Source: Watersipora subatra (Eukaryota > Bryozoa > Gymnolaemata > Cheilostomatida > Watersiporidae). From it: a DNA stretch of 64,000 nucleotides. The DNA lies in assembly GCF_963576615.1 (NCBI RefSeq), contig NC_088708.1, positions 27,473,191 through 27,537,190 on the forward strand. Reading direction: 5' to 3'. This document shows, piece by piece, positions 10,616 to 62,526 of the stretch (its first letter is position 1; every line of letters begins with the position of its first letter). The notes beneath the pieces were generated by a model that saw only the letters and a list, made by a program, of their open reading frames with translations, had not been told where the DNA came from and searched no databases. The translations under genes were made by a program, and so were the position numbers.

Positions 10616-13600
10616 TCAAGAATAAAATTTATCTTCCTTTCCCATTACATAATCGAACCAGTTGATATAAGAATACAAGGGTGTGTGCTTGTGTATTATA
10701 GAGTTTCCTGACCTTGTTCGTCGCCATTCCGCTGTTGTTAGACCTGCCAAACCCCAGTCTGTATCGCGAATTCCGAGTCGAACGTATATCGGAGCATCTG
10801 TAATGGTTTGTGTACTTGGAGATTTTTTCACGAACCTTGAACATATATATTTGCCTGATGAGCAGAGTTTGGGAGCCAGTTTTATTTTCTTAGATGTCAC
10901 ATCCAACCATTCTTTCCCTCGTCCATATGTTATCATTCCGACCTTAAATTCTTTGATAGTCCTTGTCAGATCTATTTCTGAGACGATACACGGAAAACTG
11001 CTGTATAGCTCCGCTGCCTCAGGAGCACCTGCTAGCTTTATGAGAGCAATGTCGTATCTTCTTTTGTTCCTCCTTTCGAATTCTGGGTGAATCACTACCT
11101 TGCTTATGCTACGGAGCTGTTCTCCGACATCCCCATCAAGATGCCCGATGGCAACCTTGTACTTATGTTGCGACTTTTGTATGGTTTTTCCCTGAATGCA
11201 ACTAGCTCTTAGTGTGACCCATTTCTCGTCAAGTCGCACACCTGTGCACAAGACTGTCTCTGTATCTTGCTCTATCAACCGTGCATGCCAGTTGATTAAC
11301 AGCCTCTTACCTCTGCAATAAGTACAGGTTCATAATATACCGCTAACATTTGAGTACGAGTTGCAACTAGACCTACACGATTTCCAAAAATCGCCAGGTA
11401 ATTCAATATTGGAAATTTGCAATATTGAATCCGCGATATATCTAAAATTGTCTTTTTTTAAACGATTCGTGATATATCACAATATTATTACTTACAAAAA
11501 ACTTTCAAGTTTTTATCAATATTTGTTTGTATATTTTAACTTTTTAAAAAATGGTTTTATGTTTGGAATAACTAGAAACATTTATGTCATGAATGCCGGT
11601 GTGCGCGGAAGGATATGGAATGAGTACATTATAATACTAGAAGACCTGTGCATTTTAATTCCAGTTTTTTTAATTCCAGTATCGCTCACTGAAAATCGTC
11701 AGGCGTGAGATAAATCGCCATTATGCGATTATATTGTTTATACCATTGGCGATATCTCTTTAAATGGTGGCAATTTTCAAATCATCTACCTTCAAAATCG
11801 CCACCAAACAATTCGCCATATTGAGAAGCTCTAGTTTCAGCCTTTATGCATCAGGTGAGTAGCGTAATATAACAATGAGTAATAAACAATCTGGCATCTC
11901 CAAATGAAATTTAAGAGTAAAACACTGACATATATGTCTGACACCACATCAAGAATGAAGCATGCCAATGAAGCCATCGGCATGCTGATAAAGATGGCCG
12001 CACCAAGTATTAGACTCATTTATACCTACCTATAGGTTGTGTTGTGTTGAGGAATTTGATCACATAGCAGCTTGGGCATGGCTGGCAGTGGACCAATAGG
12101 CATATCAGCAGATGCTATGCTTGATGTGAGAGGACGAGTTTGCAATGTTGTCTTTGGAGTTGTCATCTCCGCTGTAATAGGTTTCATCGCTGTTGTTGTA
12201 GTTTTCATTTGTGAGGTTAGGTTCGCTGTACCACACAACACATCTGCTCCTAATGTCAGCATCTATGACAATGAAAACATCATTTATGGCCCTATCTCAT
12301 CCGTTTGTAGAAATAGACTAGAAATGTATTGTATATAGTGCTCAGCCCATTGTGCTGCCATACCGGCCCTCTGAATTTTCTGAAGTTAATAAGTTGTGTT
12401 TATGTAGAAATACACAAAAACCTGTTGGTATATGTAGAGAGAATATACAGGGAAGAAAGAGGTACCTCTAGCCCGTGTAAGTAGGTTGGGCTATAGCAAT
12501 GTAGTGTGTCGACGTCCCGTAGTGTTTGGAGTAGCCTTTCATCCATCAACCAGAGTAATTGACATGAGCAATGCCAGTTATTGCCTTGCAAATATATCTT
12601 GCCATCTGCGCACAGAATATGTATACAATATTTCTCTTTTAAAGAAAGCTCACTAGTATATATTGGCTAGTCACTCGCTTACCCTGCATTGCTCAAGTCT
12701 CTAAAATAACTAGACGTTAGACAACTCTGCATAATTTGTGTTAATACCTTTGGATATATTAAATTGATATTTTCAGATATCATTATTACATCGATATCTT
12801 CAGATATATTACATTGATATCTTCAGATATATTACATTGATATTTTCAGATATATTAAATTTTATAGAATAGTTCAAATCATATTGAAGTAAGCTCAATC
12901 ACTTGAATGGTTGCATAAGTTAAACCTTCAATTATTACAGATTAAATTACAGATGAAAAGGCAAATATTTCAAATTTGACTAATCACCTTGAGTAAGTGA
13001 GCTCATCATGGAAACTGAGATGGTGTGTAGATGATTATAGCGCAAGTCAAGTACATCAAGGGCAGCGGGTATCCCCCTGGTTGGTTCAACGCGCTCAACA
13101 ATATTATACGATAAATTGAGATACCGAAGACTTGCCATTTCTTTGAAGAAATCCATATCAATTCTATGTAGGAAGTTTTGAGCTAGTTGGAGTTGTCTTA
13201 TTTCGATGAGCCTTTCAAATGTGCCGGTCTGAAAAGATGAGATGGAATTGTTCCTGAGATTCAAGTCCATTAGTCTGGTTAAACCATCAAATAGTCTTGG
13301 CTGTATCATACTCAAGTTGTTTGAAGCTATGTCTAGCTTGACCAATGATGGAAGAGAATGAAAGAGACTCGGTGGTAAATAGTTCAATTCATTATACGCC
13401 AAGTCAGCCGTAATTAGTTGAGGGCACTGCCTAAAAGCGGCATCAGAAATGAACTGAATGTGATTATTGCTGACTCCCAAATATTTAAGAAATGGCGTAC
13501 CAACTAACACGTCATCTCGAATGTAACTCAGCCTGTTGTAGTCGAGAAACAACCACGCCAACCTTGACACACTAGACACCGATAATACCACAAATGCGTC

Positions 13601-16600
13601 GTCTTCAACATCTTCGATCAGGTTATGGTCGAGATGCAGCACTTGTATCTTTCCCGTGTTTTGGAATGTTTGGGCTTTGATGACTTGAATCTTGTTGTGG
13701 GATAGATGTAAGCTTTCTATATTTGGTAAAGCCTTCAAGCTTCTCATGTAACTGATGTCTGATATGCTGTTGTGGCTCATGTCTAACAGTGTCAGAGAGG
13801 AAAGGCCGGTAAAGGTATCTTCTCTAAGGAATGTTATAACGTTGTTCGCCAAGTGTAGTTTCTCAAGCTGCCTTAGCATGGCGAAGGAATTGTCTTCAAT
13901 CACTCCGAGTTGATTTCTGTTTAGATTCAACACTTTCAAACTGTGCAAACCTTCAAACGCTACAGGGTCAATGCTGCTGATTTGGTTACCTGACAGATCC
14001 AGATGCTCGAGGTTACGCAGGTCTATAAAACTGTTATCTCTTAGCATTGTAATTAAGTTGTTGGCTATATTCAGCCATATCAAAGTTGATGCTCGGTAAA
14101 ACCATGTATGTGAAATCGTTTTTAGCCTGTTTGATGCAAGATTTAGCTTTTGCAGCCGAGTAATGTGCGTAAACATTTCTCCGCTGATATATTGTAGAGA
14201 ATTGTTAGATATATCCAGCTCTTCAAGCATCAGTGTGTTTGCAAAAAGATCGTTTGTTAGCTCTTCAATGTTATTACTGTTAAGAATAATTGTTTTAAGC
14301 TGAAGAAGTGGAGCGGCTGACAGTTTGGAAAGAAATGAAAGTTGATTCTTTGACAAGTCTAGTCTCTTTAGGTTGAATAGACCTGCAATAAAACTAGTTT
14401 ATAAATACATTCAACTACAATTAAATCTTTTAGGAAATATTATACATTACCAGAATTTTTAATATCTAAAGTGATATAAACTAACATTACAGATGTCCCG
14501 AGAACTCTAAAATATTACAACTCATGCGGTCAGTGATTCTTTACTGTGAAGCTTTTGTGGTTGGGTATTTTTTATCAACCAAGTATAACTTGGTTCAAAT
14601 AATCAGTGAATTAATGGATGCAGTGGTAAATATCCTGCATCCACAACCACTTATAGTCTTATACCAACTGCTATTGGAATGGCAGACTTTCAACCTTATA
14701 TAATAGTACAAATGATGGAAGTCAATTGCTGATTATAAAAAAGATGATAGAAGCGAAATTAATAAGTTTTGCATTTTTTCACATTTTTTATGCATTTGAC
14801 AGGAAGCCATCAAATGTGGTCTGAATTAATATATTTACAGTCCTTATTTTTCAAAGGTTTATAGTTGAAAAACGGCAATTGTTCACCAAGTGTGGTCTGG
14901 AACTTATGTGGAATTTAAACTGTGTGTTTCTTTTTGCAAATCTCTCAAGTATTCATAAAATATTACTACCAGTCCTACAAGAGATGCTCAGTGGCAAGCC
15001 AGCTACCAAATCCTTAGCCACAAATTAAAAATTATCACACTGATATTGTTACTTTTTTTTCATTTGCTCAAAATTTTATTTTTCAATCGTGATTATAAAC
15101 TAGCGCTGGCATGCAGTCGTCGGCATGCGGTCGTCGGCATGTGGTCATCGACATACGGTCGTCGGCATGTGGTCATCGGCATGTGGTCATCGGCCGTCGG
15201 CATGCGGTCGTCGGCATGCGGTCATCGGCATGCGGTCGTCGGCATGCAGTCGTCGTCATAACTGCCTTATAAACTAAAAAGCAAGAGTACAGCATATGTA
15301 AATTTGCCTGCATTTATATGTTTATGCGTAGTATTAGTAAATACGGACATTCACAAATATTTACATTGTATAGGCAGTAATTGTAGGCAATAACTTTTTT
15401 ATAATTTAATATGTAATCAGAACATCTGACCAATTTGATGTCTTGTAGGTATTACCACCTTTACCGTTTATAGGGTTCAGCAGACACACAGGGCTGAATT
15501 GATTGTCTCATTTTACAGCCGGCCGACTAGCTTCTGCGTAATTTAGTGTAATAGTTTATAGATTAGTGTCTCAGCAGGACCTGGCCTAAGAAGATAAGCG
15601 TATCCTCTGCCAGACTTATCATTTTATTTCCTCCGCTACGTCGCCACGGCTACACACGAGTCTGATACTCTACAGTCTACACATACCCCAGCTCAGCTAA
15701 CATAACTAGGAAATACTAGTGTATGGTCATTATCAGTTTACAGAGAATAACAGTCTTAGAATAGCAATAGTTGGGTAGTATAGTCCCAGTCCCCTACTCG
15801 CAGAGCATTGCAACGTCTAAAGGTGTTCTTAGTTATTTACTACCTTTTATATGCATTAAAATGAAACTCTTCAACTGTAATGAAGATACGAGGTTACTAG
15901 TTTACCATCAGAACATACTGGGCCGCAACCATAGAAGGACCTAGAGCTAGATTCAGCTAAGATTTCCAAGTGTGAATATTTCTACTAGTTCACCATGGAG
16001 GGTCCAGTTAGAAACATGGCCTAATAACACTCAACTCGAAGTAGCCAACTTCAACCTGAATCTTGTTGCGGGATAGATGTAAGCTTTCGATATTTGGTAA
16101 AGACTTCAAGCTTCTCACGTAACTGATGTCTGATTGCTATTGTAGCCCATAACTAAGAGTGTCAGAGAGAAAGGCCAATAAAGGTATCTTCTCATCGGAA
16201 TGTTATAATGGTGTTCGCCAAGGGGAGTTTCTCAAGCTGCCTTAGTCTAGCGAAGGAATTGTTTTCAATCACTCCGAGTTGGTTTCTGTTTAGATTCAAC
16301 AATTTCAAATTGTGCAAACCTTCAAACGCGACAGGATCATTGCTGCTGATTTGGTTTCATGACAGATCCAGCATCTGAGCTTATACTGTGTTAGAGTTTT
16401 CTTTATGAAGTGCACCTTGTTTCTACAGCTATTATATTTGGCTCTGGGTTTGGGTGGGGCTATTGGTGTATGAAAATCTAATTTGTCCAATCTTTTTTTA
16501 TGAGAACAATACTTAAGGTTATTAACATAAAATGACAGCATTCTACTAATAGCAGTAGATATATGTACTGACCACTGAATGCATATGGATAAATATGTGT

Positions 16601-19600
16601 CAGATTGTTTTCTGCCAGCGAAAGCACGGATATCATCTCCAAATAAACAAACTGATCCCAGGAGATGGCCTGCAAACACAAATCAAAGAGTAATAAGAAA
16701 CTAACAGCTTACGACAATGACTTGTGGTTTCACTTTACAGTTGCTCCTGAGGCTAGAGCTCTAATAGCATGTAAACAGATCAACTCGTTTTAACATAGAA
16801 TCTAAGATGGTGAGTTTAAAAAATATGTATATAAATACTAACATTTATGTTGTTTCCTTCGATGTGTAATTGCTCCAACTTGTCTAGTCCTTGAAAATTC
16901 GCCGTGTTCAGTTGTGTCAACTGCTGTGGCCGAGAAAGGTAGGAAGTGGGTACATTGTGGTAGATTTTTCTCCGGGTGCTTCCATAGATCGCTAGCTGTG
17001 CAGTGTCTACAACAATGTGATCTCACCTGATTTAATCAAAGGCTAATATTTTAGATTCTAATTTAGTCAGATTAAATGAAACTGGAGCCCTAAAGTTAGT
17101 GCATTCAGATTGAAATTCAACTTGAAAATTATCGTCGAGTGTAAAAAGATTAAGTATTTGGATAGATAATTACAGCAACTCAACGGTATGAGTGTAAATG
17201 ATCCTGAGGCTTCAGGTAACGGTTATTTTGTAGCCAAAGTGTCTGAACTGGTAATGAGACCTCACTTTCACTTCTCGTACTGACTAACAGTGGTACGGGA
17301 TACTATGGATATTATTTTAATGGCTTAACGTGATCTAATAATCACTCAAGTTAGTGTGGGATGATGTGACCAGGGAGCCAGAGTAGGTAACAAAAACTGT
17401 TGGCAATTAAAAGAATAATAGAAACATCTTGCCTATGGTGAGGTTTATTCTATGCCAAGCATCTTACTTATTCCAAGTCGACAGACCAACAACTTAAATC
17501 TATTAACCAATATATAAATATGTTTGGCTACCATAGCCTGCGTTATTGAGACATATTTCGTCACAAGTCGTACCTTTAGGAAGGTTTGCTGGAATCTCAA
17601 CCAATCCTATGCATGTAACTTTAGTAGTGGAGGGATTCATATTGAGGTAGCTGGATCTCTTCCAAGTTTGCTGGCTCTGTCGGCCAAACATCGCTTGCAG
17701 CCTGGACAGGGCGCATTGTAAAGTACATAGTATATCTTATAAGGCTCACAATGCTGAAGTGAGTCAGCTAAACATGTTCGAGGGACTGGCAGGCCTCCGA
17801 GTCAAGGATCAATAGTATAGTTGTATTTACAGATGGGGTTTTCATGTTAAACAGTACTTTTCAGCAATCAAACTCTGTTTATCCAAAGGCTATTAATGTG
17901 TCATTCTAAGTCAACTAAGAGCTGTTTCCAATAGTTGTCAAAAGTTGTTTTTCAAACGTTAACATTCTTAAGGGTTTAACCATTAATTACTATGCAGGTG
18001 GCAGAGTGTGAGTGGTTCAGCGTATGAGTGACTCAGTGTATGGTTAACTCTGAGTATGAGTGACTCAGGGTATGGTTGGCTCAGAGTATGAGTGACTCAG
18101 TGTATGGTTGACTCTGAGTATGAGTGACTCGGTGTATCATGGTTGGCTCAGTGTATGGTTGACTCAGAGTATATGAGTGACTCAGTGTATGGTTGGCTCC
18201 GAGTATGAGTGACTCAGGGTATGGTTGGCTCAGAGTATGAGGGACTCATAGTATGATGGAATGTTCGTAGGAGTGTTTACCAAACTACTGAAACTTGTAT
18301 TTAGTAAGTCCTCTCCTGTTACATACAAGTGTCAGAGTTTTTGCGAAGAGTATCTTTTGACAAACTTTCAGGTTTTATAATGATGATAATAATAATAGTT
18401 TAGTAATGGACTCGCTGAGATGAAAAATCGACATCATAAAGTTAGGACTCAATAATCCAGATCTTATAATGGTGCATGAGCTCATTTGAAATCTACAAAC
18501 TTAAACATTATCATTTAACCATTTTAAATTCAAATAATTGTTTAAGGAGATTTGAGTAGTTATGATATACCAACACCTGTGTTTCTGTTCTCATACATGG
18601 TTGCGTGCACGAGGTTACGCGTATCTTTAAGTTATAAATAATTTTAAATTTATTTGTATATAAGAATAGGTATACCTTATCGAAATAGGTGCAAAGCAAA
18701 TCTTACTTGGGAAGGTCAAGGTGAGCAACGGTCATGTCAAAGATGGCATACACACAGAATCAAAAATGCAATGTAATCAAGAATAACCCATTCTACCTCC
18801 CACAGAAATAACATTATAAAACTATACTATTTTTCTATGTTACTCATGCTAAATGTTTATTTTACATCCATTAAAGGTTTCCAGATCTTTTCTAGTTTGT
18901 GTACTCGTTTTTTACAGCATAGTTACAGGTTTCCAATTCACTTCAACTTCTGCGGTATGAGCAAATTACTTACAACATCTAACAATTATTTTGAAAATAT
19001 CATTGCTAGCTGCTTTAACAATCTTCCACCTATTATCCGTTCTCTTAGAAGGGAAAGATATTTTAAATGTTATATTTCAAACCATTTATTTGATTATAGT
19101 GTTTAACTGTTGCCTTTTTTTGGTTTGTTTTTTTTTGCTTTACGGTTCTTGTATGGTATAGTTTGAAAAGCATTTTTGTTTGAAATGAAACTATTGCCGG
19201 TAATGTAATATATTTATTATGGTAGATAACTGTGAGCCAAAGACACCATGTCATATTTTTTCTATTAGTCTCTGTTATGGAATATTTGATTTACTAACAC
19301 CTAAATTATGTCGCCGTCTGCTTTTTCGCACAGTGCGTTTTGTTGGTAGCCTCAGGTCCTGTTTACGTTTACAGCACTTACACCCTACATGTAGATGATA
19401 TCTCAAAAGGCAAAGTATTTTGCTAAGTCAAAACAAAATGTGAATTGTTGTTAACTGCAAAAATAGAGTGTGGCACAATAAGCTGCTGATATATAAATTT
19501 ACCTGCTGGCAGAGTTGAATATAATCAGCTGACGGCTGCTGGCGGATAGCCCTGGAGAACATTGACATCTTTCTGGACATGCTGCTCGTGCCCAGGTCAT

Positions 19601-19648
19601 AAAAGCGCATGCAAGGAGATACACCCATACGGAAAATAAATTCCTCAT
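10616..19648 (-). CDS. Secreted leucine-rich-repeat protein with C-terminal inactive trypsin-like domain
   Basis: Eight exons in transcript order: 19648-19503, 17701-17574, 17021-16843, 16669-16573, 14382-12988, 12605-12466, 12262-12030, 11312-10616. They encode 1004 residues and every junction is GT..AG with matching phase. Residues 1-22 look like a signal peptide (MRNLFSVWVYLLACAF...). An LRRNT-like cap follows, with CPERCQC at 24-30 and a further Cys in VTCIGLVEIPANLP. About 22 LRRs of the LxxLxLxxNxL type run to about 648, 19 of them in one 1395-bp exon. The LRRCT cap starts at NNWHCSC (Cys661/663). Residues about 706-760 are Thr-rich. A chymotrypsin-fold S1 domain starts near Cys762 (INWHARL, YDIALIKL). 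Ser810 replaces the catalytic His (TLRASC instead of TAAHC), Asp860 is kept, and the GDSGGP site reads TDAPIYV, so the nucleophile is missing. No membrane segment was seen. Likely an extracellular binding protein; the partner is unknown. Confidence 0.85.
12750..12862. repeat. Tandem repeat, about 24 bp unit, in intron 5 of the LRR gene
   Basis: Four or so copies of GATATYTTCAGATATATTACATT, A+T-rich, between the large LRR exon and the LRRCT exon. Confidence 0.75.
15110..15258. repeat. Minisatellite, about 14 bp unit, in intron 4 of the LRR gene
   Basis: About ten copies of CGGCATGCGGTCGT, with GTGGTCAT and ACGGTCGT variants. It is much richer in G+C and CpG than its surroundings. The unit contains the palindrome GCATGC. 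Confidence 0.85.
16057..16372 (-). pseudogene. Decayed partial duplicate of the large LRR exon
   Basis: This stretch matches 13685-14002 of the same gene almost base for base over about 316 bp, in the same orientation. It includes the blocks CAATCACTCCGAGTTG and GATTCAAC and the segment encoding the repeats around NLEHLDLSGN to the HLSHNK region. Small deletions break the frame, for example in the CTGATATGCTGTTGTGGCTC equivalent and in GAGAGGAAAGG. It lies inside intron 4, between exon 4 and the intact exon 5, so it looks like an internal exon-segment duplication that was never used or has decayed. Confidence 0.85.
18003..18252. repeat. Minisatellite in intron 1 of the LRR gene
   Basis: About eight imperfect copies of a roughly 32-bp unit built from GAGTATGAGTGACTCAG and GTATGGTTGGCTCAG. 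The half-units resemble each other, so an older 16-bp repeat may underlie it. TGACTCA inside the unit is an AP-1-like heptamer, but nothing shows that it acts as one. Confidence 0.85.
18840..19106 (+). pseudogene. Possible 3' remnant of a non-LTR reverse transcriptase
   Basis: An open frame ending at 19104-19106 reads FENIIASCFNNLPPIIRSLR, followed by YFKCYISNHLF. It resembles the C-terminal tail of many LINE polymerases, where a W/F-N-x-L-P motif is followed by R-S and F-K-x-x-L. No catalytic core is present. It could equally be a chance frame; the resemblance is by eye only. Confidence 0.3.
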
Positions 19649-21483
19649 ATTACGCATCGTTCAAGTGACTCAAATCATCTAGAGTTCATTCTTCAAATAT
19701 CTGAATGGTATGAACGAGAGAGACTTGTTATAAAATACAGCAACTTTCATTTCAACTCTAAATTATTTATATAAATGTGCTGCTTTTTTGCTTCACAGCA
19801 TTTTCAGACAAAACAGAGATGAGTCATGACAAATGATGAGTCTTAGTACATTATGTAATTGAATTTAAAATACTGTACAGAAATACTTCTTTCAATTTTT
19901 TTAATTCACGTTACAGTTTTAACAGCACAGAATTATTACAAAAATTGGAATAAATCATAGCGTGTCACATATTTGATGAATTGATAATGAAATACAAAAA
20001 TGTTCATAGTATTGAAATACTTTATTCATATGCATTATATTTTTAGTTTCTGAGTGGAAGAATTTAACTTACCATTGAGAGGAGCAGAAACCACCTTGTC
20101 TTCTTTTATAATAACAACCTGCTTATCCCATTTTCAGACAATACAATAGCGTGGCTCCATATTCCCGTCCATTCAAGTATTACACGCAATACTCAATGAG
20201 AGCCATACAAGGCTGCATATCTCTAGCATAGAAAGTGTAATTAAAGCTAGGCCCAGTGAAGACTCGGCAGAGATAACACTCTATTATTTTCTCAGGCCGT
20301 ATCAAATTTCCCACCCATATAGTTTGGCATAATGGGCCTGGATAAACTGCAGAAACTTCGTATATTTGTATGCATTAGGATATTATATATTAACAATGGA
20401 ACTAGAGAAGTATCTTTTTACAACAATAGCTTGCCTCGCTACATTCCGGGTGAACAATGTGAATACTTTAGATTGTTTGCTTCTGAAATGAATAAGAGTT
20501 CAAGGACTTGTTTATGGCGGATCTTTCAGCTTTCAGTGCTTGCACGAATACTACCAATTCTCAAATAATAATTAATACAGGAAAATGTGACAATAAAAAA
20601 ATTGTACACTCGGCTAGCATTTTTTCACATAAATTGTGCTTGCATTCCAGTTTAATATATCTCAGTTTAGGCTGCAGGCATAGTTTGTGGTTTATAGGTT
20701 TGGTACTTCTTAGACATTAGCAGCATATGACAAATCAACCTGCAGTGGTTTTATTTGCTTCAGTCAGCCTATAAATTCTTTTCATCAAAGATCATCAGAT
20801 GATCATCGTTTACCACCTTATCTCAAGGCAGCTGTTCAGTGCAGAGAATAGCTAACATTTTATAGAGTACACAAATTGCACACAAAACGAGCAGTAATTT
20901 GCGAATATGCCTTATTGCGTACACGAGAAAACTTTTTACTTGAATACAGTAAAACATCGCTCACATACATTACATGTCCTTAATGCTGAAGAGCTAAATG
21001 TGTTTTTAGATATTCGCTGTCTAAAATACTCAATTCGTATTTCCAATCTGCCTGACCATCCACTACATTTCTACATTCCCAGAAAATCCTCTACACCTTA
21101 TACCAGACACCAACACCTCGCCGATTTACATTATAGAACAACGTTATGCAGAAAAAGTTTTTCCTTCTAAAACGCATAATTTACTGTTCGCTTTTTTTTG
21201 TCTCATGGTTTAATTTGATTTGAACAGCATTGATCGGTGATAATGAAGTTCATATCTATTGATACGTTCAGCTGCATGTAGTGTTAAATAAAGGATATAT
21301 AAGGTGGACCAGCAATGTCAGAGCTAACATTACAATAGTCGAAAATACATCCTTTACAACCTTCAAAAATGTTAATCATTAAATACAATTCAATATTGTG
21401 TTATTGCACTTTTTATTGATATACTCAAAGGCAATACGGAAATATTTAAAGCTTTTTTATATAATTATAATCAATTTTGGTAG

Positions 21484-24126: not shown

Positions 24127-27100
24127 ATGAGCAATTCATCGCTAGTCTCTGGAGATGTTGTTGAGCCTGTAAAATGCTCTTCAACCCTGTTTAACCAATC
24201 TATAACTAATTTGTCATCTGCTGAAGCAGAGACAAAAGATGATGACAAGCAAGCTTCACTGAAATCTTGCTTTGCCTCCTCAGCAGTTTTAACTTGTTCG
24301 GAGCCGTCATTTGAGGAGGTGCCAGTAGATGAACAGAGAGCACAAAGCAACTCTTTGTCGAACTGCAAGATGCTTATGGGCGTGGCAGTGTGCTATTTTT
24401 TTGCAATCTTAGTTCCTGATATTGCTAAGCAGTTAGTTCAAGCATCAAGGGAGAGTCTCTCTGCCTCTCTAACAAGGTTTGCAATCTTTCATCAGTATGT
24501 AAAGTAACTGATAGCACATGTTATAAGAGCACTTTATAGGCAACCTAATAACTTTGAAAGTGGAAGTAAAGAAGGAGTATTTGTAAATCTGAATATGGTA
24601 TTGTTGCTGTATAATTACTCATTACAGAGCGATTTGGCGATCTTAAATTCAGTACGGAATATTTTTATAGTGTACTTTTTTACATCATCATGCAACTATT
24701 CAGTATTCAGTCTAATTTTTTTCCTGCAGTGTGCCAACAGATGGACCGTCTACAATATATCAGTCAGCAAAACCAGCGGAGCCGTTCTTTGCTTTTGAAA
24801 GCCCAGTACATGACTCATACACAGGGGCTCTACATGTGGCTGGAAAAGTTGTCAAGGAAAATGGCTATGTATTTGTCATGTATTACGCTTCATGGTCTCT
24901 GAATAGCATGCTTGCTCGTAAGGAATTTGAGACAGCCGCCAATATGCTCAACGACAGGGTAGGTGACACCGCTGACTGTATTGACCATCAAATTGTATGT
25001 TTGACATGTTAGTCTGTAATTCTTCTGTCATTTGTGTCATTATATTGCTACTTCTTTTCACTTAACATGAATAATTCAAAACTTCAATTTATATTTACTT
25101 GTTCAACTTTTTCAAACAAATTACTGTATCACTATGATTTGCTCTTATAATAGTGGTTTGCATTATCCGGTACTATTTTGGTACTATTCTACTAATCAGA
25201 CCAGTGTGATGTGTTCTTTGGTGGTTACTATAGCATTTTTGAAGTTGTCCTTTTTTATTGGTTTGTCTTTTATTCACACACTTATAATCAAACGTCCGAT
25301 TTGGTTTGTTCTTTTATTCACACTCCTACAATCAAACTTCCTGTATGGTTTGTCTTTTATTCACACTCCTATAATCAAACTTCCTGTTTGGTTTGTCTTT
25401 TATTCACACTCCTATAATCAAACTTCCTGTTTGGTTTGTCTTTGATTCACACTCCTATAATCAAACTTCCTGTTTGGTTTGTCTTTTATTCACACTCCTA
25501 TAATCAAACTTCCTGTTTGGTTTGTCTTCTATTCACACTCCTATAATCAAACTTTCTGTATGGTTTGTCTTTTATTCACACTCCTACAATCAAACTTCCT
25601 GTTTGGTTTGTTTCGTAATTACAGCTTACAAGCTTGCTTCCCAATTGGTTATTTTTTCCTCACATCCTTACAATCACATTTTCTGATTAGCTTACAGTCT
25701 ACTCACACTTATACTCTCTATTTATATTATAGCCTAATTTTATATTTTAGGTGCCATTCATAGCCATTGACTGCTCCAACTCCAACCAATGCAAGTCTAA
25801 ATATAAATTTTACAGTTTTCCTTCTTTTTACTTTTATGCATCTGGCATGGACATAGGCTTTTCCTACACAGGTTAGTCAAACATTGAAACTTATTATAAT
25901 TTATATGTTATTATTAGTCTTATATTGTAGTGTCAACTAGAGCGGGATACAAACTCCTCGCTTACATAGCACTCTTATTAAATTTTTATCTTATTTCTAA
26001 TGCTGCTCGATCAGGTTTGCCACTATCGCTTATCAAAATTATGTGCTAAGCTGCATTCATAGATGTAAGCTCCAACTCCCATCAGCTTTTCTCTATCACT
26101 CTCCATTTTGAAACACAATGTAAATTATTTGGCTAGCGCTAGTAAATAATTATTAATACTATGATATCCGCTACCTTTCTACTGATTTTGAATTTGGTCT
26201 ATTTCTCATCTCTCAGTTTTCGGATTTGCCCATTTTGCTTATCAAAGTTTTTAAAACAGCTCATCACACCCTGCCTATTTCATAAGACACTCTCTAGTGT
26301 CACTCGCTGTTTCCTGTTGGATAGCAGCACCGATGTATAGCCAGTTAGAAATACACCCTTCTAACTAACCCACTTACACCATCATTACAAAATCTGCTTC
26401 ATTTGTTAAGCCACCCAGATTGTTATATATATTTTTGTGGTTTTGCACATCAACTGGCTGTTCTATTGGCTATTACACACATAGGCACTCATGGCTAATT
26501 TTATATTTTTCTGATTTATATTCTACTGCTGCTACAATGTTATGATGCATACATACTGCTATTGTAGGAGTTGCCAAGGCCGAGTATTTTGTCAGGTTCA
26601 TAGAATCTCTGCTCAATCCAATCACTCATATATTTAACTCAAGTCAGCTCACCAGTTTTGTTTCTAGCCATGAGGTAGGCCCTTTAGGATTTGAATCTTC
26701 CACTGCCTACTCTTGCTATTTAAATAAGCCATAACAACTGAAAGTAGGCATGCGCGTGAACCTTACAAATGAGTTATCTCATCTTGGCAAATTTTCCAGC
26801 AAAGCTTGCTGGTATTGTTTGTCACAAGCGGATAACTCTTCGATATAGCTCTTTTAATTAAAGAATTCTTAAAGAAACGAGCTAATGAAAAACAATTGAT
26901 GTCTCGCCATCCTATTCATAATTAACAACTACCGTATATTATGTGGCTAAACTTAGTAGGTGAATGTTTAGCATTTGACTGTTGCTACTTGCTGATGCTG
27001 ACATATTCCTTAAATAGCTGTTAAGTGTAACTTGTTATAATTACTAGTACATTGGAAGTCTAGCGTGCCATTAGATGTGGTCAGGTGTGCCGTGGGAAAT

Positions 27101-30100: not shown

Positions 30101-33100
30101 TCTGCGGTACAGATTCTTTATTCCAAAATTCTAATATCTAATACAACAACAGATAATAACATAAACTTTGAGAAATATATATATATATATAAAATTGTTT
30201 CCTCACCCCGGATACCCCGTATGGGTGGTAAATTCTGCTCTAACTCGGGTCTCCTACCAGAGACCTGGGAGTTTGAGCACTCGCCTCAAGATCTTAGCTG
30301 TTTCCAATAGCGCACTTTTCTGCGACTCACCTGAGTTGATTGCTGTTGGTATTTGGGCAAGCCAAATTTTATGCGCCGGTGTTATTGCGCCCAGTGCCAC
30401 AATGACTACTGGGATTACAGTTGTTCTTACATTCCAGCATTTTTCAATTTCTTCTCCAAGAGGGAGATATTTTTCTACCTTTTCTTTTTCTTTGCTGGCT
30501 ATATTGTAGTCATTGGGTACTGCTATATCTATAATAGTAGCCCTCTTGTTCTCCTTGTCTACCACCACTATATCTGGTTGGTTTGCCAGGACATGCTTGT
30601 CAGTTTGGATGTAGAAGTCCCAGAGGATCTTAGTGCGGTCATTTTCATTGACCTTACCAGGAGCTTCCCACCAGCGTTGTGGTTTATTAAGGCCATACTC
30701 ATCACATAGACTTCTATACACAACACCTGCGACATGATTATGCCGCTCAGTGTATGCGTTCCCTGCTAGCTGCTTGCATCCACTGATGATGTGTTGGATG
30801 GTCTCAGGTGCATCTTTGCACAGTCTGCATCTAGGATCGTCTCTAGTGTGATAGATTTTCGTTTGGAGTTGCCTTGTTGGGAGCACTTGCTCCTGGGCTG
30901 TCATGATTAGCGACTCTGTATTGGCCGTTAGGTTTCCTTCGTTCAGCCACATATATGTCTGGTGAAGATCGCCAACCTTAGATATTTGCTGGTGGTAAGC
31001 ACCATGAAGAGGTTTCGTGTGCCAGTCAATTTCTTCATCATCAGGGTGTAGGTCCGTTGTAAGAGCAGCCGATTGAAATTCAGCTAGCAACTTATCTGAG
31101 ATGGCCATGGAGGCTGCATATGCTTTGATGCTTTGCTCCTCCTCTTTCACTGTCTGCTGTACACTTTTGAGTCCCCTACCGCCATCTTTCCTATCAAGAT
31201 ACAATCTAGTAGTATCAGATTTTGGGTGGAGTGCTCCATGCATGGTCAGCAGTTTACGAGTTGCTATATCCGTTTCTTTGATGGCTTCCTCAGTCCACTT
31301 TATTATGCCTGCTGGATATCTTATTACTGGCAGTGCTTAGGTATTTATTGCCATGACTTGGTTCTTGGCATTGAGCTGGCTCCGTAAGATCTGCCGAGGC
31401 GTTTCTTGTATTCGGTAATGGCTTTGTGACGTACCTCAGCTTCATGGTTGATGTTGCTTTGCATAATCCCCAAGTACTTGTACCCTTCTTCTATATCTTT
31501 GATGGTACCATTTGGCATTCTTAGGCCATCTGTGAGCATAGAATGGTCTTTCTTAAGAATTAGCCTTCCACATTTCTCAATACCGAAGGTCATTCTGATG
31601 TCCTTGCTGTATACCTGAGTGAGGTGTATTAGCGAATCAATGTCCCTTTCTTTGTTAGCGTACAGCTTGACGTCATCCATGTAGAAGAGGTGGTTTATCT
31701 TGGTGCCACTCTTAAACTGGTACCCATATTGAGTCTCCTCTAGCATATTGCTTAGAGGGTATAGGCATATGCAGAAGAGCAGCGGTGATAAGGAGTCACC
31801 TTGATAGATGCCTCGCTTAATTTGTACACTCGCCAGCTTTTTGCCATTAGCCTCCAGTTCTGTCTTCCATTTGGTCATTGACATCTTGATGAATGCCACA
31901 AGAGCAGGGTGAACATTGTACATACTGAGGCACTCAAGTATCCAACTATGGGGAATTGAGTCATAGGTCTTTTTGTAGTCAATCCAAGCCATGGCAAGAT
32001 TGGTATGCCTTCTCCTGCTGTCTTGACAGACCGTCCGATCCACCAGTAACTGATGTTTAGCTCCTCGGGTGTTGCGCCCAATTCCTTTCTGAGCACTGGT
32101 CATATAGTGACTCATGTGCTCTTCCAGTTTGTGTGCAACTATTCCTGAGAGCAGTTTCCAAGTGGTGGGCAAGCACGTTATTGGTCGATAGTTTTTAGGA
32201 ATCGGCCCCTGCTTTGGATCTTTTATCAGAAGTACAGTTCGTCCTTTGGTCAGCCATTCTGGATGGTCACCTTGTTCTATTAGGCATTCCATCTGCTTAG
32301 CCATTCTAGTGTGAAGTGATGTCAATTTCTTTAACCAGAAGGCTTGAATCATGTCATGGCCAGGTGCTGCCCAGTTCTTCATACGCTGCACTCTGCACTT
32401 GATGTCCTCTTCGCTGATGGTGAGTCCTTGCTGGGCCACAGTGTGTTGATGGCTCTCTTTAAGCCTCTTCAGCCAATTTGCAGTGGTGTTATGAGTAGTC
32501 TCTTTCTCCCAGATGTCCTTCCAGAACTTTGAAGTGCTAGATCGGGGAGGCTCAGACATTGGCCTCTGCAGTTCACCTTTGAACTAGGAATACACTCTAG
32601 ATGGATTATTGATGAACAGTTTGTTCATTCTCTTGTTATCCCGCTCTTTGGTGTACCGCTTCAGTCGTGTCGAGAGTGCTACTAGCTGCTGTTTGGCAGA
32701 TTCTAGAGCTTCTATTGTGGCTTCCCTTTTTGGACGCTCCAAACTGTGGTTAGACTTTTCACTGAGCCTACTAACTTTCTTGCGCAAGTCCTTGATCTTA
32801 TTTTGTAGCCTCAGCTGCCAGGATGGAATGGCTTGAAGCCTTGTTGGCATTGGCTTAATATCCATCTCCTCCAAGATGACGGTTGCTGTACTGTAGATTG
32901 AGGCATTAGTCTCACTGATTGATCCAGTTGAGATTGACTCCAGTGCCATGTTAATGTCTTCTAACAGCTTCTTAGGTATGGCCTTGCTAACTTTTCGTAG
33001 TGGTACCCTGCTTCCATAATCATTAGCAGCTGACATCTTGTTGATGATATTTTCCGCAAGCTCTCTCACCCTTGGGTCAAGGTCCAAGTGCATGTCTTCT

Positions 33101-36100
33101 TCAACCCGTGAGTCAACACATGATCGTGTATGTGTGACAGTGTGTGATGATATGCACTCTCACTAAGATGCACTATCACTCTCACTATGCAATTCTCTCT
33201 TAGATATGCACTCCTCGTTGGTTGAGGTTACTTGGGTGAACTGTTCCCTAATTTCATCTACCTCAAGTTCTGATATGAGCTGCCGCTTGATTATGTTACT
33301 CCTCTGAGCTACAAGTTGCTTAGCGGTTAGTGGCAATTCAGGGCGCATTTTTATCCACAGTTGACGCATCCTTCCCATATAGCCCCACTTTTGAGGTTCA
33401 CTCATAAAGTAGCACTGCATGAGGTCCGTGTTATCAGTCCGAGTCCATTTCATCCGTTTTGAACCAGTAGCCCATTTTTCACTGCCTTCTCCTGGTTCAG
33501 CTACAGGCAGCGCGGACCTTGTTTGATCGGGCGACGTCCGAGCCGGCATGGCTTTGGTTAGTGCACTCATCATAGAGGTTGTAGACGTTATACAAGCAAG
33601 GGTCTTGTCCAAGGACCACCAGAAAAGTGCAGTTGTTGGGGTTTGAACCGAGGACCTAATGATCATGGTCCCAATACCTTACCAACTGCACTATCTGTCC
33701 TGTATATATATATATATCTATATATATATATATATATATATAGGTTGTTTTAAAAAGTCTTGAGCAGTCCAGTTAGTTTGATAACTTGTTCAGCTGTATT
33801 TGAACTACTGAACAAAAACAAGTAGGTAGATCATAATGGCAGTACAAAGAAGAGTACATAATTATAGAACTAAAGCAAGTGTCTGGTTGAACCAAGTGTC
33901 AACATGTAGGGCAGTTAACAGCAAGATCATACTACAACATCTAGTTATAACTAGTATGTATATCAACACGTACGACCAACTACCTGTTTTATAATGCAAA
34001 GTTTATTTAAACTTTTACCGGTTGGAATTGTGTTGATGAAATCGATCCCTTTTACTCCCATGACTAACTTACAGCTTCTATATTTGTCCTGTTTTAAGAC
34101 TGTCAGCTGTTACCTTTATCCACGGGTTAGTTTATGTTGGCTACAGGCTACTACTACCATACATTCTGATATGTAATAACCGCCTCGAGCATTAATTTCA
34201 GGTGTATCCAACAGGGCGTAACTTCACCTCTACAGCCATATCAGCTTGGGTGAACAAGTACAGAGCTGAGGTAAGCAGTACCTTGTTGAGTACTTGCGTT
34301 TATGGTTCGACCTAAACTTCCTGTGTCAATTAATCCCGCAGTCCATGTTCAAGGTTTCTTCCTTCTTTCACTCACCCATTAGTCAGGTGTATCCTCCTCT
34401 CCTAGCCAGTCACTAATATATTGGTTTTTAGCAATAGTTTGAATGCTTTTTCTTTTTTTTGTTAAACTAAGACAGACTAAACTAGAAAACTTCTTCTTAT
34501 CAGCAAAAAGAGCTTTACACTAAAACTGTTTGTTTTTCTATTCATAACAAATATACAGACTGTATCAGACTCGGCGTACATCAACCATTATGTTTCTTCA
34601 GTTACCTCTAAAACGTCACTTCTTTGAAAGAGTGTGAAAAAGAACCATTTACTCTATTTGATTTCTGTTTTTTCATTGAGTTCTGCAAGCTTGCATTTTC
34701 AAAATGATGTTCAGTTTAAAAGGAATTGTGCTTTCACAGTCGACGAAGTTGGTAATACAGTCTAGAATCAGGTGGATTGCTTGTATATACATGGCTAGAC
34801 TTCAAAGAGTTGACTGGTTTTTCTCACTTACCATTGGTGAACAGAGTTTTTTCCCCCATTAGCCTCTCGTCAAATGGCTTCTCCCTCGAGGAAAGAAGGC
34901 TATCGAGCTGTATAAAACGCTAAAGTCTGGTCCAACAGTGCTGCTGCTCACTCCCTATGATGCCTGCTCTTCCCACAACCGTGATGCAATGCTCGTGAGT
35001 TTATTCCTAAATCTTTTTTTATACACGGAAGGTGTCAGTGAAATAACTAACCTTTGATATGTGTAGATAATGCTATGCTTTCCTTTCTAATGTCTTCGGT
35101 CGACGTTAACAGGCCTACAGAAAGACTGTCACCCCTAGTTTTATTTCTCAATACAAACTTCTACATATGTTTTAGCTATTGCTAATATTTTTATTAGGTA
35201 AGTGAAAATTATATATGGCTACATCGCAGTCAGTCATAGTATTAGGTAAGATGCATGGGTGTTAAATGACGAACTACGATTGCAATACTAACACACTGAG
35301 GGATATTTAGTCGGTGGTTCAACTGCATTTGTCTTTGTTTTTTATTAGACCGAAATGGATTCGCAGGTAATTCTCTCTTAGACTGATAATACACAGATAG
35401 CTGTATAGCAGATCATGTAGCTGTGTGTTTAGTAGCAGAGTTTGTGAGACAGAACTAGGTTTTAGAAGATGTTAGTAGTGACAAGATTTGTCTTTGTTTT
35501 TAGTTGCGCGAAGTCGTGCTCAATTATTACTCGTGCAACGGTAGTTCGGAGGCTAAAAAGAAGGTGCAATCCTTTATAAGAGGGTCAATACAGGCTCGCA
35601 GTGAATCATCAGCCACCTTCTGCATGGTCTGTGAGTCACCTGTGATGCCATGCTGCTACACCGTGGCTAACTCATCTCTCTGTCAGGTGAGTCTGAGCAT
35701 TCAATTGTACGTATATGGTATACTGGCTTTCGTTTGACAACGTGGGAGTTGTTTTCTCCATCAGAGAATATGTAGTAGTCTGTACACAGAGTATTTTAAA
35801 ATAGTGCATTTGCTTCTATGCATTTACACGTAGTAAGTATGATCCTGTATTTTATGAAAGTATATGACCTGTTAGGTCTATTATGTAATAATAATAATTA
35901 ATGACGCACGCAAACATAGTTATTTCACATTTCTACCTTTTTCTGTGAAGTTATCCAACCGTGAATTAATAACTATTCTATAACAAATCTAATTGCACAA
36001 ATGCCTAATTGTCTCATAATCGAATCATTTTGCTGTAAATATTTTAGGTTTGTGAGTCTCGAACAGCCTGTAAAGGAAACTGTAGTCCTTGTGAAAACCT

Positions 36101-39100: not shown

Positions 39101-42100
39101 AAGTTGTCTTCTTTCATTATCAGCCAACCCAACAACTTTGAGGGTTTAAACTGTTAAAGGTTGATTTGCAACAAAATTCACATTACTGTTGTTTGGTATG
39201 AAAAGATTCACCATGTCTTACTCTGTTGTGTTGTAGGTGCAAAATATGTGGAAAGGTGATTACAAGCTCTTAAAAGCTCAAAAACGAACAGAAAATCGCA
39301 GCCACACGAGACCGCCGTAGTTCGGATTTCCTTTCCAAAACGGCTCAAATGTGATGTAGTTGTGAGAAATGGTTTCTGTTTACACTTTCTTGCAACCTTA
39401 TTCGTCGAAATATTTTCACAAATATACTTCACGCATTCAATAAAACTATGTCTATTGTTCTTACGCGTCTGTTTTATCGTCATCGTAATGCTGTCACTTT
39501 TAGCAGTGATATCTTATAACTTACCGTAAAAATTCGTTTAATTTTTTAGCCTTAGCTTGAAGGAGTACATATCATTGTTTGATAATCATGACGAGCCTGT
39601 TGGTCACTTGTGATAATTGAAAAGTGCTGCAGAAATTATTTGCGAAGTATTGGGTCACATGATCAGATCACGACTTGCCGATTAGACCAAACCGAAACAA
39701 AACTGTAAAGTAGCGAGCATCTATATTTGATACGGAGTCTTCGGTAAAACCCGAAGTGTTTGTGATAAACTAGTACTACGATAAGTTTTATATTGAGCTT
39801 TGTATTGGCCTTTCAATTCACGTGAGAACATACGTGACAAGACAATAACCAAATTTCGTGGTTACGTCATCGAAATAAAGAGATTTTAATCTACGGCGGC
39901 TTTTCGTTGTTGAGCTTTTAAGAGCTTGTAATCACATTTCCACCTATTTGGCACCTACTGCACAACATAGTAAGACATGGTGAATCTCTTGATACCAAAT
40001 AACTGTAAAGTGAATTTTGTTGCAAGTCAACCTTTAAGAGAAAGTGTAGCCTAGCCTATTGTCTACTTGGCAGTATGTCCTGGAAACATCAATAATGGTA
40101 TTATATCCTCATTTTTATTGATATCCTACAAACATCAGCACTCAGAGGTCGTGTTATATGACATCATTTTATTATGGTTAGACTGCAACACAACTTAAGG
40201 TGACAGTGAGTAACCCAATAAACCCAATAAATCAATGTATAAATAAAATCTGAGTCATTGCAAATAACTGGGGATTTTTTTCTTATATGATTGAAAGATT
40301 TAACCATTCTTCTCCAGATTAAATAAACATCGTAAGTGCTAACCTAATCATTTCTCTGTCTCTTTTGAATTAAGAAACCTGAGAAATGTAGTTAAACTAC
40401 AATATTCAATAATTCCACAATTGTCTTCATCTGCATAAAAGAACTTTGGTTCAGTTTTTAAGTCAAGAATTTGAGAACCAATTTTGATATTACTAAATCT
40501 ATTCTTGGCCCACCCGCCTGTCTCATTCATTCTATTCTTGTTGGCTATCTCTTTTGGCTCATCTAGCCCCACCAGAAATGCCTGAAGGTGTTCCAGCCTT
40601 CCAGCAATATGGTGGCGTTAAAGCTGCTTCAGTGAAACCAGTCAATCACTGACTAGGAATGCTTCAGTGAACCTTCTTGTCCACAAGTTCTTGAGACCCT
40701 CTTGAGATCGAGATGGAGCAGCACTCTCAATCCCTGACTCTTCTCTCTCCTAACAGATTTCAGCTAATTTTAGTTTGAATAATTTTACTTGCTGCCCTAT
40801 TGTTTAGAGGGGTCTATTTAAGGCTGGCTGCTTCCTTTTGCAGCTTTTTAAAAAATGATCCGGAAAATTTTTGGCACCGATTAATTCAGCTCTGGTTGTT
40901 ATGGGGGTTGTTCTGAGAAAATAGAACATCTTTGTCCTCCGCTGTGGCTATTTCTAGTGGTATATTTTTGCAGCCACTCTAGAAGAAGTTATCCTGACCA
41001 CAAATTTGCAGGCTCCCACTTTTTATATTACCAGTTTTAAACTAAGACTGAATCAGTTTATGGTCTTTCTTCCCAAAGTCTGCAGAAGCTCTCTCCACGT
41101 GATGCCCATCTCGATACATAAATGGTGGCAGAGTATTATATGGGTCCTGTAGCCAAATAACTCTTCATTGTTTTACCAAATCTGAAATGGTTCACTTATT
41201 TTTGTTTGCCAATAGTGGTCTAGAATGATCATGTGGGAAGAGCTGAAACTAGTGTTACAGCTGTTTCCATCCGATATTTGGTCGAAACTACACAAAAACA
41301 TTATTGAAACGTCAATCTGTAATGCTATCTGTTATGCTGTTAATGCAATAAACATATCTGCTGTCAGTTAACCTTTAAATTCATTGCCGAACAAACTTTC
41401 AAATCTTGAAACTATCGCTTGCCATTTTTGTAAGTTTTTCAACCGTTTTCTTGAATTCATCAGCAAACTCGTTCTGTAATTGGCACCTAGAGTCATAGAC
41501 CTATTAACTATACAGTATAGTTAATAGGTCTATGTGGTACCTCTCAATATTGGTACAAATGTATAGCAATGAAGCGCGTGGGGGTACTTTGTTTTTGTAC
41601 GTTGTAGATTTAGCTATTGCCCTTGGAGAAACCTTGTACAACAGCACATTTGAAATTGAAACAGCACATTTAAAAATTACAAATTAAAAAAGTAGGTAAT
41701 GAACTTTGTAATGGCTTTTAGAAAAATTCCAAAATATAAACAAACGTAAAAGGTATTATTAATTCATAATAAAAAGTACATATATAGTTAATAACCTGCA
41801 ATTGTGATAACGATAGATAAAGAGTGAAAAATTGTCAAAACATTTCAGCCTAGTGGTTACATTTCTTGTGTGTTGACTGACTGGCAATTTGAATGTCGCT
41901 AGTTCAAATCCCCAGTGACACGGATTTTTTCTTACTAAAACTTTATCGCTATTACTGGACAGGCGAGCAACGACAGACACTCACATCCATATATATAGAC
42001 TAGTTAAAGTTCATATTTCGGAAAAGCAAAATATGTTAAATTTTCTATTTTTAGCTGTAGGAAATAGTACTACTAGAAATATGAAAATTGCTTGTTTTTT

Positions 42101-45100: not shown

Positions 45101-48100
45101 TTTATATTTATTTTTCTTTGCTTGGCCATTTTTAAATGTAAACAGGCAGGCGAAACAGTCTGCTAAGACATTTGTCTTTAAAGGTTGACTTGCAACGAAA
45201 TTCACATTACCGTTATTTGATATGAAAAGATTCACCATGTCTTACTCTGTTGTGTTGTAGGTGCAAAATCTGTGGAAAGGTGATTACAAGCTCTTAAAAG
45301 CTCAAAAACGAACAGAAAATCGCAGCCACACGAGACCGCCGTAGTTTGGATTCTGTTTCCAAAACGGCTCAAATGTGATGTAGTTGTGAGAAATGGTTTC
45401 TGTTTGCACTTTCTTGCAACCTTATTCGTCGAAATATTTTCACAAATATACTTCATGCATTCAATAAAACTATGTCTATTGTTCTTACGCGTCTGTTTTA
45501 TCGTCATCGTAATGCTGTCACTTTTAGCACTGATATCTTATAACTTACCGTAAAAAATCGTTAAACTTTTAACCTTAGCTCGAAGAAGTACATATCATTG
45601 TCTGATAATCATGACGAGCCTGTTGGTCACCTGTAATAATCGAAAAGTGCTGCAAAAATTATTTGCGAAATATTGGGTCACATGATCAGAAAAGGACTTG
45701 ACGATTGAATAATGCCGAAACAAAACTGTAAAGTAGCGAGCATCTATATTTGATACGGGGTCTTCGGTGAAACCCGAAGTGTTTGTCATAAACTAGTACT
45801 GCGATAAGTTTTGTATTGAGCTTTGTATGGGCCTTTCAATTCACGTGAGAACATACGTGACAAGACGATAACCAAATTTTGTGGTTACGTCATCGAAATA
45901 AAGAGATTCCAATCTACGGCCGCTTGTAGATCCAATCTCTTTAGAGCTCAATCTCTTTAGAGCTTGTAATCACATTTCCACATATTTGGCACTTACAACA
46001 CAACAGAGTAAGACATGGTGAATCTTTTGATACCAAATAACTGTAATGTGAATTTTGTTGCAAGTCTACCTTTAAGTTATTCTCTTCATACTGCTAACAA
46101 TTTTCCCCAATTTATAACTATCATTAGAAGAACGTATTAACTGCTCTCTTGGTTTGTAAATTACTGTAATACCATACACTGAACCAGAATAGGCACTACA
46201 TACATAGGTACTAGTTTGCATTTTTTTACTTGAATTTTGTACTTGTTAATATTGCAGGTATGCTGTTCCCGGGTGAGCCATGACGGGAGACATTTTACTG
46301 ATGATTATGTAAGAAAGCATCGGCATTGTTCACCAGCTAACAGCGGATTCACTCAGCCTCATTTTAATGATACAATGCGACTGTCTACAGAGAGCTACGT
46401 GTGTAAACACAATGCTACCCCTAACTTCCTCGCTATGGACAGCCACCTCTATACAGACCTTGCCAATAGATTTGGAATTGGTTCCATGGGCCTTTCTACG
46501 AGTCATCTAGCGCTCGTTGATCTCTCTGATGAGTCATACTACCTCATGAAAGGCAGCTTTAATCGCACTAACATAGGTAATATGAACATATGTCAGCCTT
46601 TGGCTATCTGGTCTAACATAACGTAGCTTAATTGGTAAGGTATTCGCTTAGCGAATGGGAGGTTCCGAGATCAAATCTTCGGCGATATGGATTCTTCACT
46701 CTAATATTTTTAAGTTTATAGCTGGACAAACTGAAGTACACACACAAACTTTGAGATTTATATACATGTACAGTCAAACTCGGATAACTCGCTTTCGGAT
46801 AGCTCGAACACATGGTTAACTCGAACGGATTTATTCGGTCCGTGCCCACGCAATGATAAATTGCTTTCAATAACGACCTCAACATCATTAACTCGAACAG
46901 TTTTTGCCCAACGGCTACCAAGACGGTTGTTCTTAGGCGTCGTTATAACTATCATCGGCAAGATATTTTCGTTAACGATTTTTCTAAAGGTTTGCAAAAA
47001 TCAAATTTTACCAAACATCCTTAGGCCGACAGCATTAATGTCACTTTGCCCGAAGGAGAGTGCAAAATAAAGGCAAAATTAGCATCACTTTTCCCGTGAA
47101 AAGGTTAAATTTATCTTTCAAAAATTCTTATGAGCTAGTCGAAAAATACTAGCTTTCAGTTGCAATTAGCCCGCCTATCTTAATATACTGGGTGGTGTGA
47201 ATATCAGGCGCTCCTAATGTATGAGAATGCGCAAGCATCCACTGCTAGTGTTAGTTGCAGCCTCCACATAGGTGGATTCACTCCATGGTTCTCCGTGTGC
47301 TTGAGCCTATTGCAGTTAGGAGGTTGAAGTGACTGAGCTCGCAAACTGCAAATGTACTAACTTAGCCCTGGAACTTTACAATGATGTACTTTCTGACAAT
47401 CACAATCTGTTCCATATTAATTGCAGGCCTTGCATAATGTTTCAGATGTTCTATTTTTGGCCTTCAGGCCACACCTACTTCCTCAGTACTTCATTTTGAT
47501 GGAGAAAAAGCTTGGTTATGAGCAGCAATTTAGTATAGTTGAGATGGGTTCTTATTGGCTCCGTCAAACTTGGAAGTATTGTGAGACCGTTTTTGGCAAT
47601 GTTTAGGAAGAAAAAAATTCTTTTATCTGGGAGGTCCTTCTTGTCCTTATTACCAAGGAAACATTTTATAATTGTTTGGAAAAGTGTATAAAAATTACTC
47701 ATTTTTGCAATACAGCAAGCACACTGTGAGACAAACTTACTATGCCTCAGCTTAGAGATGGACTCGCACAAAATTTTAGCAGCTCTTCTCAGAAGGTATC
47801 AGTATTTTTCTATCATTTGCGATTGTTGTTGGCGTTTGATGTGATCTGACTGCCAGGATGTTTCAAGGTTAAAATCAACAAAAATGTCTCGCGGTCTACA
47901 CACTGAGATCAAACAAAAGTGGAGTTATGCCATCTATAGTTGCAAAGAGACTGCTAAAATAGAGACGCGTAACGCTGCAACTTGAAAGCAATCGCTAATA
48001 TCAACTTTAACAGCTAGTGAAGTCGTGTTGCACATAGTTTTTTTCGGAGCGTTTCAGCCGCGATCAAGTTTTGACAATTCTAATCTTGAAACATTGTGGC

Positions 48101-62084: not shown

Positions 62085-62526
62085 CGTATCTATCGATAGA
62101 ATGACTACCGTATCTATCGATAGAGTGACTACTGTATCTATCAATAGAGTGAGTACCATATCTATCAATAGGGTGACTACTGTATACATGTATATCGATA
62201 GAGTGAATACCATAGCTATCAATAGAGTGAGTACCATATCTATCGATAGAATGACTACCATATCTATCAATAGAGTGACTATCGTATCTATCGATAGAAT
62301 GAGTACCATATCTATCAATAGAGTGATTAACGTATCTATCGATAGAGCAACTACGGTATCTATTGATAGAATGACTAGCGTATCTATTGATAGGACCGTA
62401 TCTATCGATGGAGTGACGATCATATCTATCGATAGAGTGACTACCATAGTTTGAAGAAAATCTGAAGATATGTGCAAAGTTTGACTACGACAAAATGGAA
62501 CCAGTTTTTTTCATTTATATCATGAT
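62085..62526. repeat. 24-bp tandem array with fixed right flank, copy B
   Basis: About 15 copies of the CTATCGATAG-containing 24-bp unit, followed by GAAGAAAATCTGAAGATATG and TACGACAAAATGGAAC exactly as at 49226-49662. The shared flank shows that both arrays belong to one dispersed element. It is directly followed by a TA-flanked element at 62528. Confidence 0.9.

Follow-up and report, generated by a model that had tools for sequence, protein, structure and literature searches.

A predicted Watersipora subatra gene joining an extracellular leucine-rich repeat solenoid to a non-catalytic trypsin-fold domain

Leucine-rich repeat (LRR) proteins and inactive proteins of the S1 (trypsin-fold) type are both common in animal defence, clotting and growth-factor transport. 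IGFALS (acid labile subunit, ALS) and Toll-type proteins have LRR solenoids with 24-residue repeats that are secreted or form ectodomains, and TLRs in addition span the membrane and carry a TIR domain. Haptoglobin, the HGF/MSP beta chain and insect clip-domain serine protease homologues (SPHs) have a secreted S1 fold without working catalysis, and the modules that accompany it are of the CCP, PAN/kringle or clip type instead of LRRs; in mosaic proteases the two chains are tethered via Cys1-Cys122. Among LRR proteins, platelet GPIb and carboxypeptidase N subunit 2 also hold or bind a protease; the enzymes are active there and the complexes non-covalent. According to the accessible text of PMC11957333, the Anopheles LRR proteins LRIM1 and APL1C and the non-catalytic SPCLIP1 act on TEP1. 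The accessible part of PMC13194640 describes pseudoproteases as ligands, cofactors or scaffolds, and attributes to PRSS23 and PRSS35 a furin motif and no activation switch, with Thr for Ser in PRSS35 of most species.

The gene considered here was predicted in the window, by which we mean the whole 64,000-nt stretch of DNA that was analysed, and it would unite LRR and S1 parts in one polypeptide. Its repeats are of the 24-residue kind seen in IGFALS and Toll-type ectodomains, and the start of its C-terminal cap is common to IGFALS, whereas ALS has no S1 domain. The S1 part resembles those of haptoglobin, HGF/MSP and clip-domain SPHs in being a putatively secreted fold without working catalysis, and tethering via Cys1-Cys122 as in mosaic proteases would be possible. 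PRSS23 and PRSS35, as portrayed in the portion of PMC13194640 available, are similar in being secreted pseudoproteases with an RxKR before the domain and no Ile16-Asp194 switch. LRR and non-catalytic S1 parts likewise belong to one pathway in Anopheles, but they are separate polypeptides there, as far as the available portion of PMC11957333 goes, and one gene here; no TEP link is implied. Both parts appear to be of known kinds, and what would be new is their joining in one gene. Searches of the open-licence PMC library, which omits most subscription papers, gave no title or opening of an abstract that names an LRR-S1 fusion, and this is consistent with the original prediction, in which no named family with this combination was known. 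In their accessible portions, PMC11957333, PMC11797021, PMC9334734, PMC11788884, PMC12849515 and PMC13194640 do not place LRRs and trypsin in one protein. Predicted, unnamed proteins of this architecture may well exist in other proteomes, and the present finding is one predicted gene in one genome.

Gene model and the LRR arm

When exons were re-derived from the raw sequence, eight of them on the minus strand (Table 1) gave a single open frame of 1002 aa, in which all seven introns are GT-AG and the exon end phases are, in order, 2, 1, 0, 1, 1, 0 and 2. The predicted arrangement of eight phase-matched exons in one protein was reproduced, and the signal peptide, about 22 LRRs, Thr-rich linker and S1 domain that had been proposed were all recovered. 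From the N terminus, the signal peptide and about 22 LRRs of the extracellular type are followed by an LRRCT-like cap with four Cys, the linker and the S1 domain. Exons 4 to 8 have GT-AG at each boundary with fitting phases. At the 5′ end, the exon 2 acceptor may be 17701, 17674, 17656 or 17650, all of which keep the frame, and exon 3 may start at 17006 or 17021, with 16991 open as well. Enumeration of all acceptors leaves 12 open combinations for exons 2-3, encoding 980-1007 aa, and matching phases therefore lack the power to fix the 5′ end. Our model uses acceptors 17701 and 17006; the 1004 aa claimed earlier, against 1002 here, result from a second in-frame Met in exon 1 (at 19648) together with the acceptor before 17021. 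The signal peptide has a best 11-residue hydropathy of 2.24, and splicing in vivo and secretion are both predicted from the DNA.

Table 1. Predicted features of the locus, in window coordinates
Feature	Position	Strand	Content
Exon 1	19503..19657	-	Signal peptide and start of N-terminal cap (Cys27, 31, 33)
Exon 2	17574..17701	-	Remainder of N-terminal cap (Cys82)
Exon 3	16843..17006	-	First LRRs
Exon 4	16573..16669	-	LRR
Decayed copy of the middle of exon 5, in intron 4	16054..16371	-	Outside mRNA model
Exon 5	12988..14382	-	Main body of LRR solenoid
Exon 6	12466..12605	-	LRRCT-like cap, Cys659, 661, 683
Exon 7	12030..12262	-	Cys703 (fourth of the LRRCT), linker rich in Thr, Cys760 (S1 'Cys1')
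Met-initiated hydrophobic ORF in intron 7	11840..12019	-	Candidate alternative first exon, S1-only form
Exon 8	10616..11312	-	Entire inactive S1 domain in one exon, then stop

Twenty-one repeats stand in register over residues 138-623 and are preceded by one poor N-terminal repeat; they recur every 24 residues apart from one step each of 25, 29 and 23, and the loose LRR pattern used also returned off-register matches. These are the tandem 24-residue LxxLxLxxN repeats expected of extracellular LRR proteins, and Pfam LRR_8 matched the whole protein with E = 3e-99. The joins between exons 3, 4 and 5 are supported because the LRR register runs unbroken through both junctions. Within the best 60 of 111 PDB matches, the closest sequence relative of exon 5 was IGFALS (E 1.4e-56), followed by LGR5 and TLR3; LRRC32 (GARP) and LRRC33 are also among the matches listed. 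We read this likeness as generic ectodomain similarity. NCBIfam returned eight bacterial LRR families for the LRR part, each far below its cut-off.

The two caps fared differently. The C-terminal cap has the LRRCT pattern CxC...C...C (Cys659, 661, 683 and 703), and the ranges of PDB matches to LRRC15, LRRTM, LRRC4B and CD180 extend past the third of these cysteines, not the fourth. The N-terminal cap fits Cys27, 31, 33 and 82 by a CxxxCxC motif from which the fourth Cys is unusually distant, and its CPERCQC start scored -1.2 bits against ALS, which is not significant. Pfam, scanned over the whole protein at E up to 1, names neither LRRNT nor LRRCT. The LRRCT originally proposed accordingly stands by its cysteine pattern and the PDB match ranges, while the LRRNT is weak. 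TLR identity was rejected: an S1 domain follows the LRRs, the whole-protein Pfam scan contains no TIR, and none of the 12 most hydrophobic 19-residue windows is C-terminal, all of them falling either within the signal peptide or inside the LRRs (196-197 and 443-445).

Cysteines and the case for one polypeptide

The protein contains 16 cysteines, of which Cys17 lies within the signal peptide. Fourteen of the remaining 15 occupy expected cap or S1 positions, the exception being Cys501. We take Cys793-809 and Cys921-928 to be C42-C58 and C168-C182 in chymotrypsin numbering, and Cys760-Cys879 presumably corresponds to the link that mosaic S1 proteases have between C1 and C122. These pairings are the ones that family knowledge would suggest; the Cys191-Cys220 pair is absent from the S1 domain.

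Exon 7 carries both the fourth LRRCT Cys (703) and the S1 Cys1 (760), and the expected partners of these residues sit in exons 6 and 8, so that the two pairs would span the 6/7 and 7/8 junctions. The earliest in-frame ATG of exon 8 comes at residue 897, in the middle of the domain. A single protein is best evidenced on these grounds, since exon 7 holds Cys703 together with Cys760 and the S1 exon has no early ATG. Eight of 60 donor-acceptor pairs for exons 6 and 7 keep the frame, and only 12466/12262 gives a short C3-C4 spacing, 20; a spacing of about 20 is usual for LRRCT. We consider it highly probable that LRR solenoid, caps and inactive S1 domain belong to one protein, and both the LRR-S1 fusion and the loss of catalysis are well supported at the level of sequence.

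Fold and catalytic positions of the S1 domain

The S1 domain was recognised most clearly through its first half. Pfam Trypsin matched the exon 8 ORF with 39.4 bits (cut-off 20.6, E 7.9e-10) and the whole protein with E 1e-8, both matches being limited to roughly the first 138 of the profile's 220 positions. The original prediction had been staked on a profile search detecting a chymotrypsin fold, and Pfam Trypsin did so above its cut-off. A phmmer search against the PDB gave 132 matches at E up to 0.01; within the best 60 of these, mite Der p 3 (3.3e-5) and thrombin (1.8e-4) came first, and the thrombin alignment reaches weakly into the second S1 barrel. An HMM built from 76 bacterial trypsins scored 38.2 bits over residues 778-871 and found no match in residues 866-1002. 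Shuffled controls for the latter region used a less strict threshold, at which 371 of 500 gave a score (highest 5.1 bits), and are thus not a matched control for this search of the C-terminal half. The missing HMM match counts against a well-preserved second barrel. NCBIfam gave no family for the S1 domain, and tblastn of the domain against phage sequences gave no match.

Structure prediction, applied to exon 8 only (residues 772-1002), gave a trypsin-like model in one of two settings. From the single sequence the model failed, with a pLDDT of 31. With 74 bacterial trypsins supplied as alignment, AlphaFold (AF2) gave a mean pLDDT of 72.3 and a pTM of 0.74, and the model has trypsin-like secondary structure: pLDDT is 81-91 in the first barrel, about 69-78 in a strand at 957-967 and about 71-90 in a C-terminal helix at 983-993, while residues 872-941 are poorly modelled (44-64). 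Built as it is on an alignment of trypsins, this model is not independent evidence; it supports compatibility with a trypsin fold and is not proof of one.

At the catalytic positions, His57 is replaced by Ser808 and Asp102 is kept as Asp858, as had been predicted (Ser810 and Asp860 in the earlier numbering). In a MAFFT alignment that runs ungapped through the GDSGGP site, Thr942 takes the position of Ser195 and Ile941 falls in the Asp194 column. The nucleophile previously assigned, Ala946 (944 here), requires a deletion or gap, in which case Asp943 would be Asp194. Neither alignment places a Ser at the nucleophile, and its loss is upheld, whereas its identity as Ala is not, the ungapped residue being Thr942. 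Where an active peptidase has the triad His57/Asp102/Ser195, this domain has Ser808, Asp858 and Thr942. The IVGG activation segment is also gone, RGKRLLINW standing in its place; an IVGG cassette exon in intron 7 was rejected, none of 16 open candidates containing an IVGG-like motif. RxKR motifs occur twice, at 771-774 (RGKR, at the start of exon 8) and 852-855, and a furin cut there is possible, yet the motifs are not specific evidence for one.

Membership of two described groups was rejected. A clip-domain SPH is contradicted by the whole-protein Pfam scan, in which no CLIP was found at E up to 1. Against PRSS23 the S1 domain had a local score of 59, where 500 shuffles averaged 31.7 and reached at most 64. 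Scores against 76 bacterial trypsins were higher, with a median of 79 and a best of 111, and PRSS23/35 membership was dismissed on this comparison. The PRSS23 sequence used was checked at seven residue positions printed in the accessible part of PMC13194640; in blastp it shared with the S1 domain one 35-residue stretch of 43% identity, with E 7e-4 for a single pair.

Proposed role, alternatives and neighbouring features

We tentatively favour, with a probability of about 0.45, the architecture above together with a scaffold or cofactor role for a secreted LRR-pseudoprotease. The product would be a single secreted, soluble protein whose cysteine-capped, Toll/ALS-type solenoid serves as an arm that binds a target or partner. 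A Thr-rich stalk and a disulfide anchor (Cys760-Cys879) would carry the non-catalytic S1 domain, which would offer a second binding surface, and the bound target or partner would meet whatever docks on the pseudoprotease, be it a protease, a zymogen or another protein. Optionally, cleavage at RGKR might yield two chains still linked by Cys760-Cys879. Family knowledge suggests that the LRR arm would bind a ligand and the S1 surface a partner, and the earlier description of the product as a recognition or cofactor molecule seems reasonable. It is quite unlikely that the gene represents an undescribed animal family in which an LRR recogniser and a serine protease homologue act, from a single gene, as a one-chain recognition cofactor. 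If it did, one arm would dock the target and the other a protease; in mosquitoes the two kinds of part are separate proteins, employed in complement-like and melanisation control. An LRR-S1 fusion gene would hint at partners that possibly cooperate elsewhere as separate chains, and would provide a defined construct for asking what the pseudoprotease docks on.

The fusion fits the scaffold or cofactor reading, and its main rival is ligand carriage resembling that of HGF and ALS: the pseudoprotease would be a receptor ligand like HGF/MSP, carried or presented by the LRR arm as ALS and GARP do for growth factors. ALS is the best PDB relative of the LRR part, LRRC32 (GARP) and LRRC33 match it too, and the S1 fold serves as a receptor epitope in HGF/MSP, according to the accessible text of PMC13194640. 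Such LRR similarity is generic, however, and Pfam shows no kringle or other HGF module, so that we regard this alternative as unlikely. A dead S1 domain might instead be a decoy or serpin sink, binding inhibitors or substrates and so regulating an active protease at a location set by the LRR arm; cofactor and decoy pseudoproteases are both known from the portion of PMC13194640 available, and we give this version very little credence. Distinctly improbable, too, is a decaying gene or functionless lineage-specific by-product, in which an S1 exon was captured at the 3′ end and is drifting. The active site, the IVGG segment, Cys191-Cys220 and the second-barrel profile signal have all been lost, and a decayed exon 5 copy lies inside intron 4, but the 697-nt exon 8 is open throughout, the remaining disulfide positions are retained pairwise and the LRR part is intact.

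The locus might also encode two products, an LRR-only secreted protein ending, for example, in intron 6 and an S1-only protein with its first exon in intron 7. If intron 6 is retained, the frame picks up one further Cys, 28 residues past Cys683, before it reaches a stop, and an LRR-only product could conceivably have its fourth Cys in this way. In intron 7, the ORF starting at 12019 opens with Met and a hydrophobic segment (2.63), and two of its GT donors are in phase with exon 8. A similar start candidate is nevertheless present in 325 of 1000 Markov introns, and the ORF is treated as a chance occurrence for that reason; its use as an alternative first exon is possible at chance level. Both donors (GTGTCA and GTTATA) look poor, Cys703 and Cys760 share exon 7, exon 8 has no start of its own and introns 5 to 7 have no AATAAA, all of which make two products very unlikely. 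On the minus strand, the interval from 14382 to 11312 contains two ATTAAA (11674 and 11659) and no AATAAA; the latter signal occurs once within exon 8 (10886) and again past the stop at 10373, 10264 and 10168. The single LRR-pseudoprotease remains our preferred reading.

Several other features of the window were recorded. The exon 5 copy in intron 4 has 89% DNA identity to exon 5 over 320 columns, with stops and indels. Minisatellite-like tracts were seen by eye at 15115-15260 (intron 4) and 18010-18260 (intron 1). Broken remains of a reverse transcriptase, which we take to be non-LTR-like, occupy 30254-33678 on the minus strand (RVT_1 E 4.7e-26 on 31348-32583). The segments 39208-39529 and 45232-45553, about 6 kb apart, are near-identical dispersed copies as judged by their translations, and repeat arrays open on both strands, with SIDRVTT-like units, lie at 49203-49613 and 62047-62484. 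A possible thioredoxin-domain exon at 24716-25012, presumably TXNDC11-like, matched no Pfam family at E up to 0.01. The exon at 5563-5823 matches Sedlin_N (E 1.2e-6) and, we presume, resembles TRAPPC2L.
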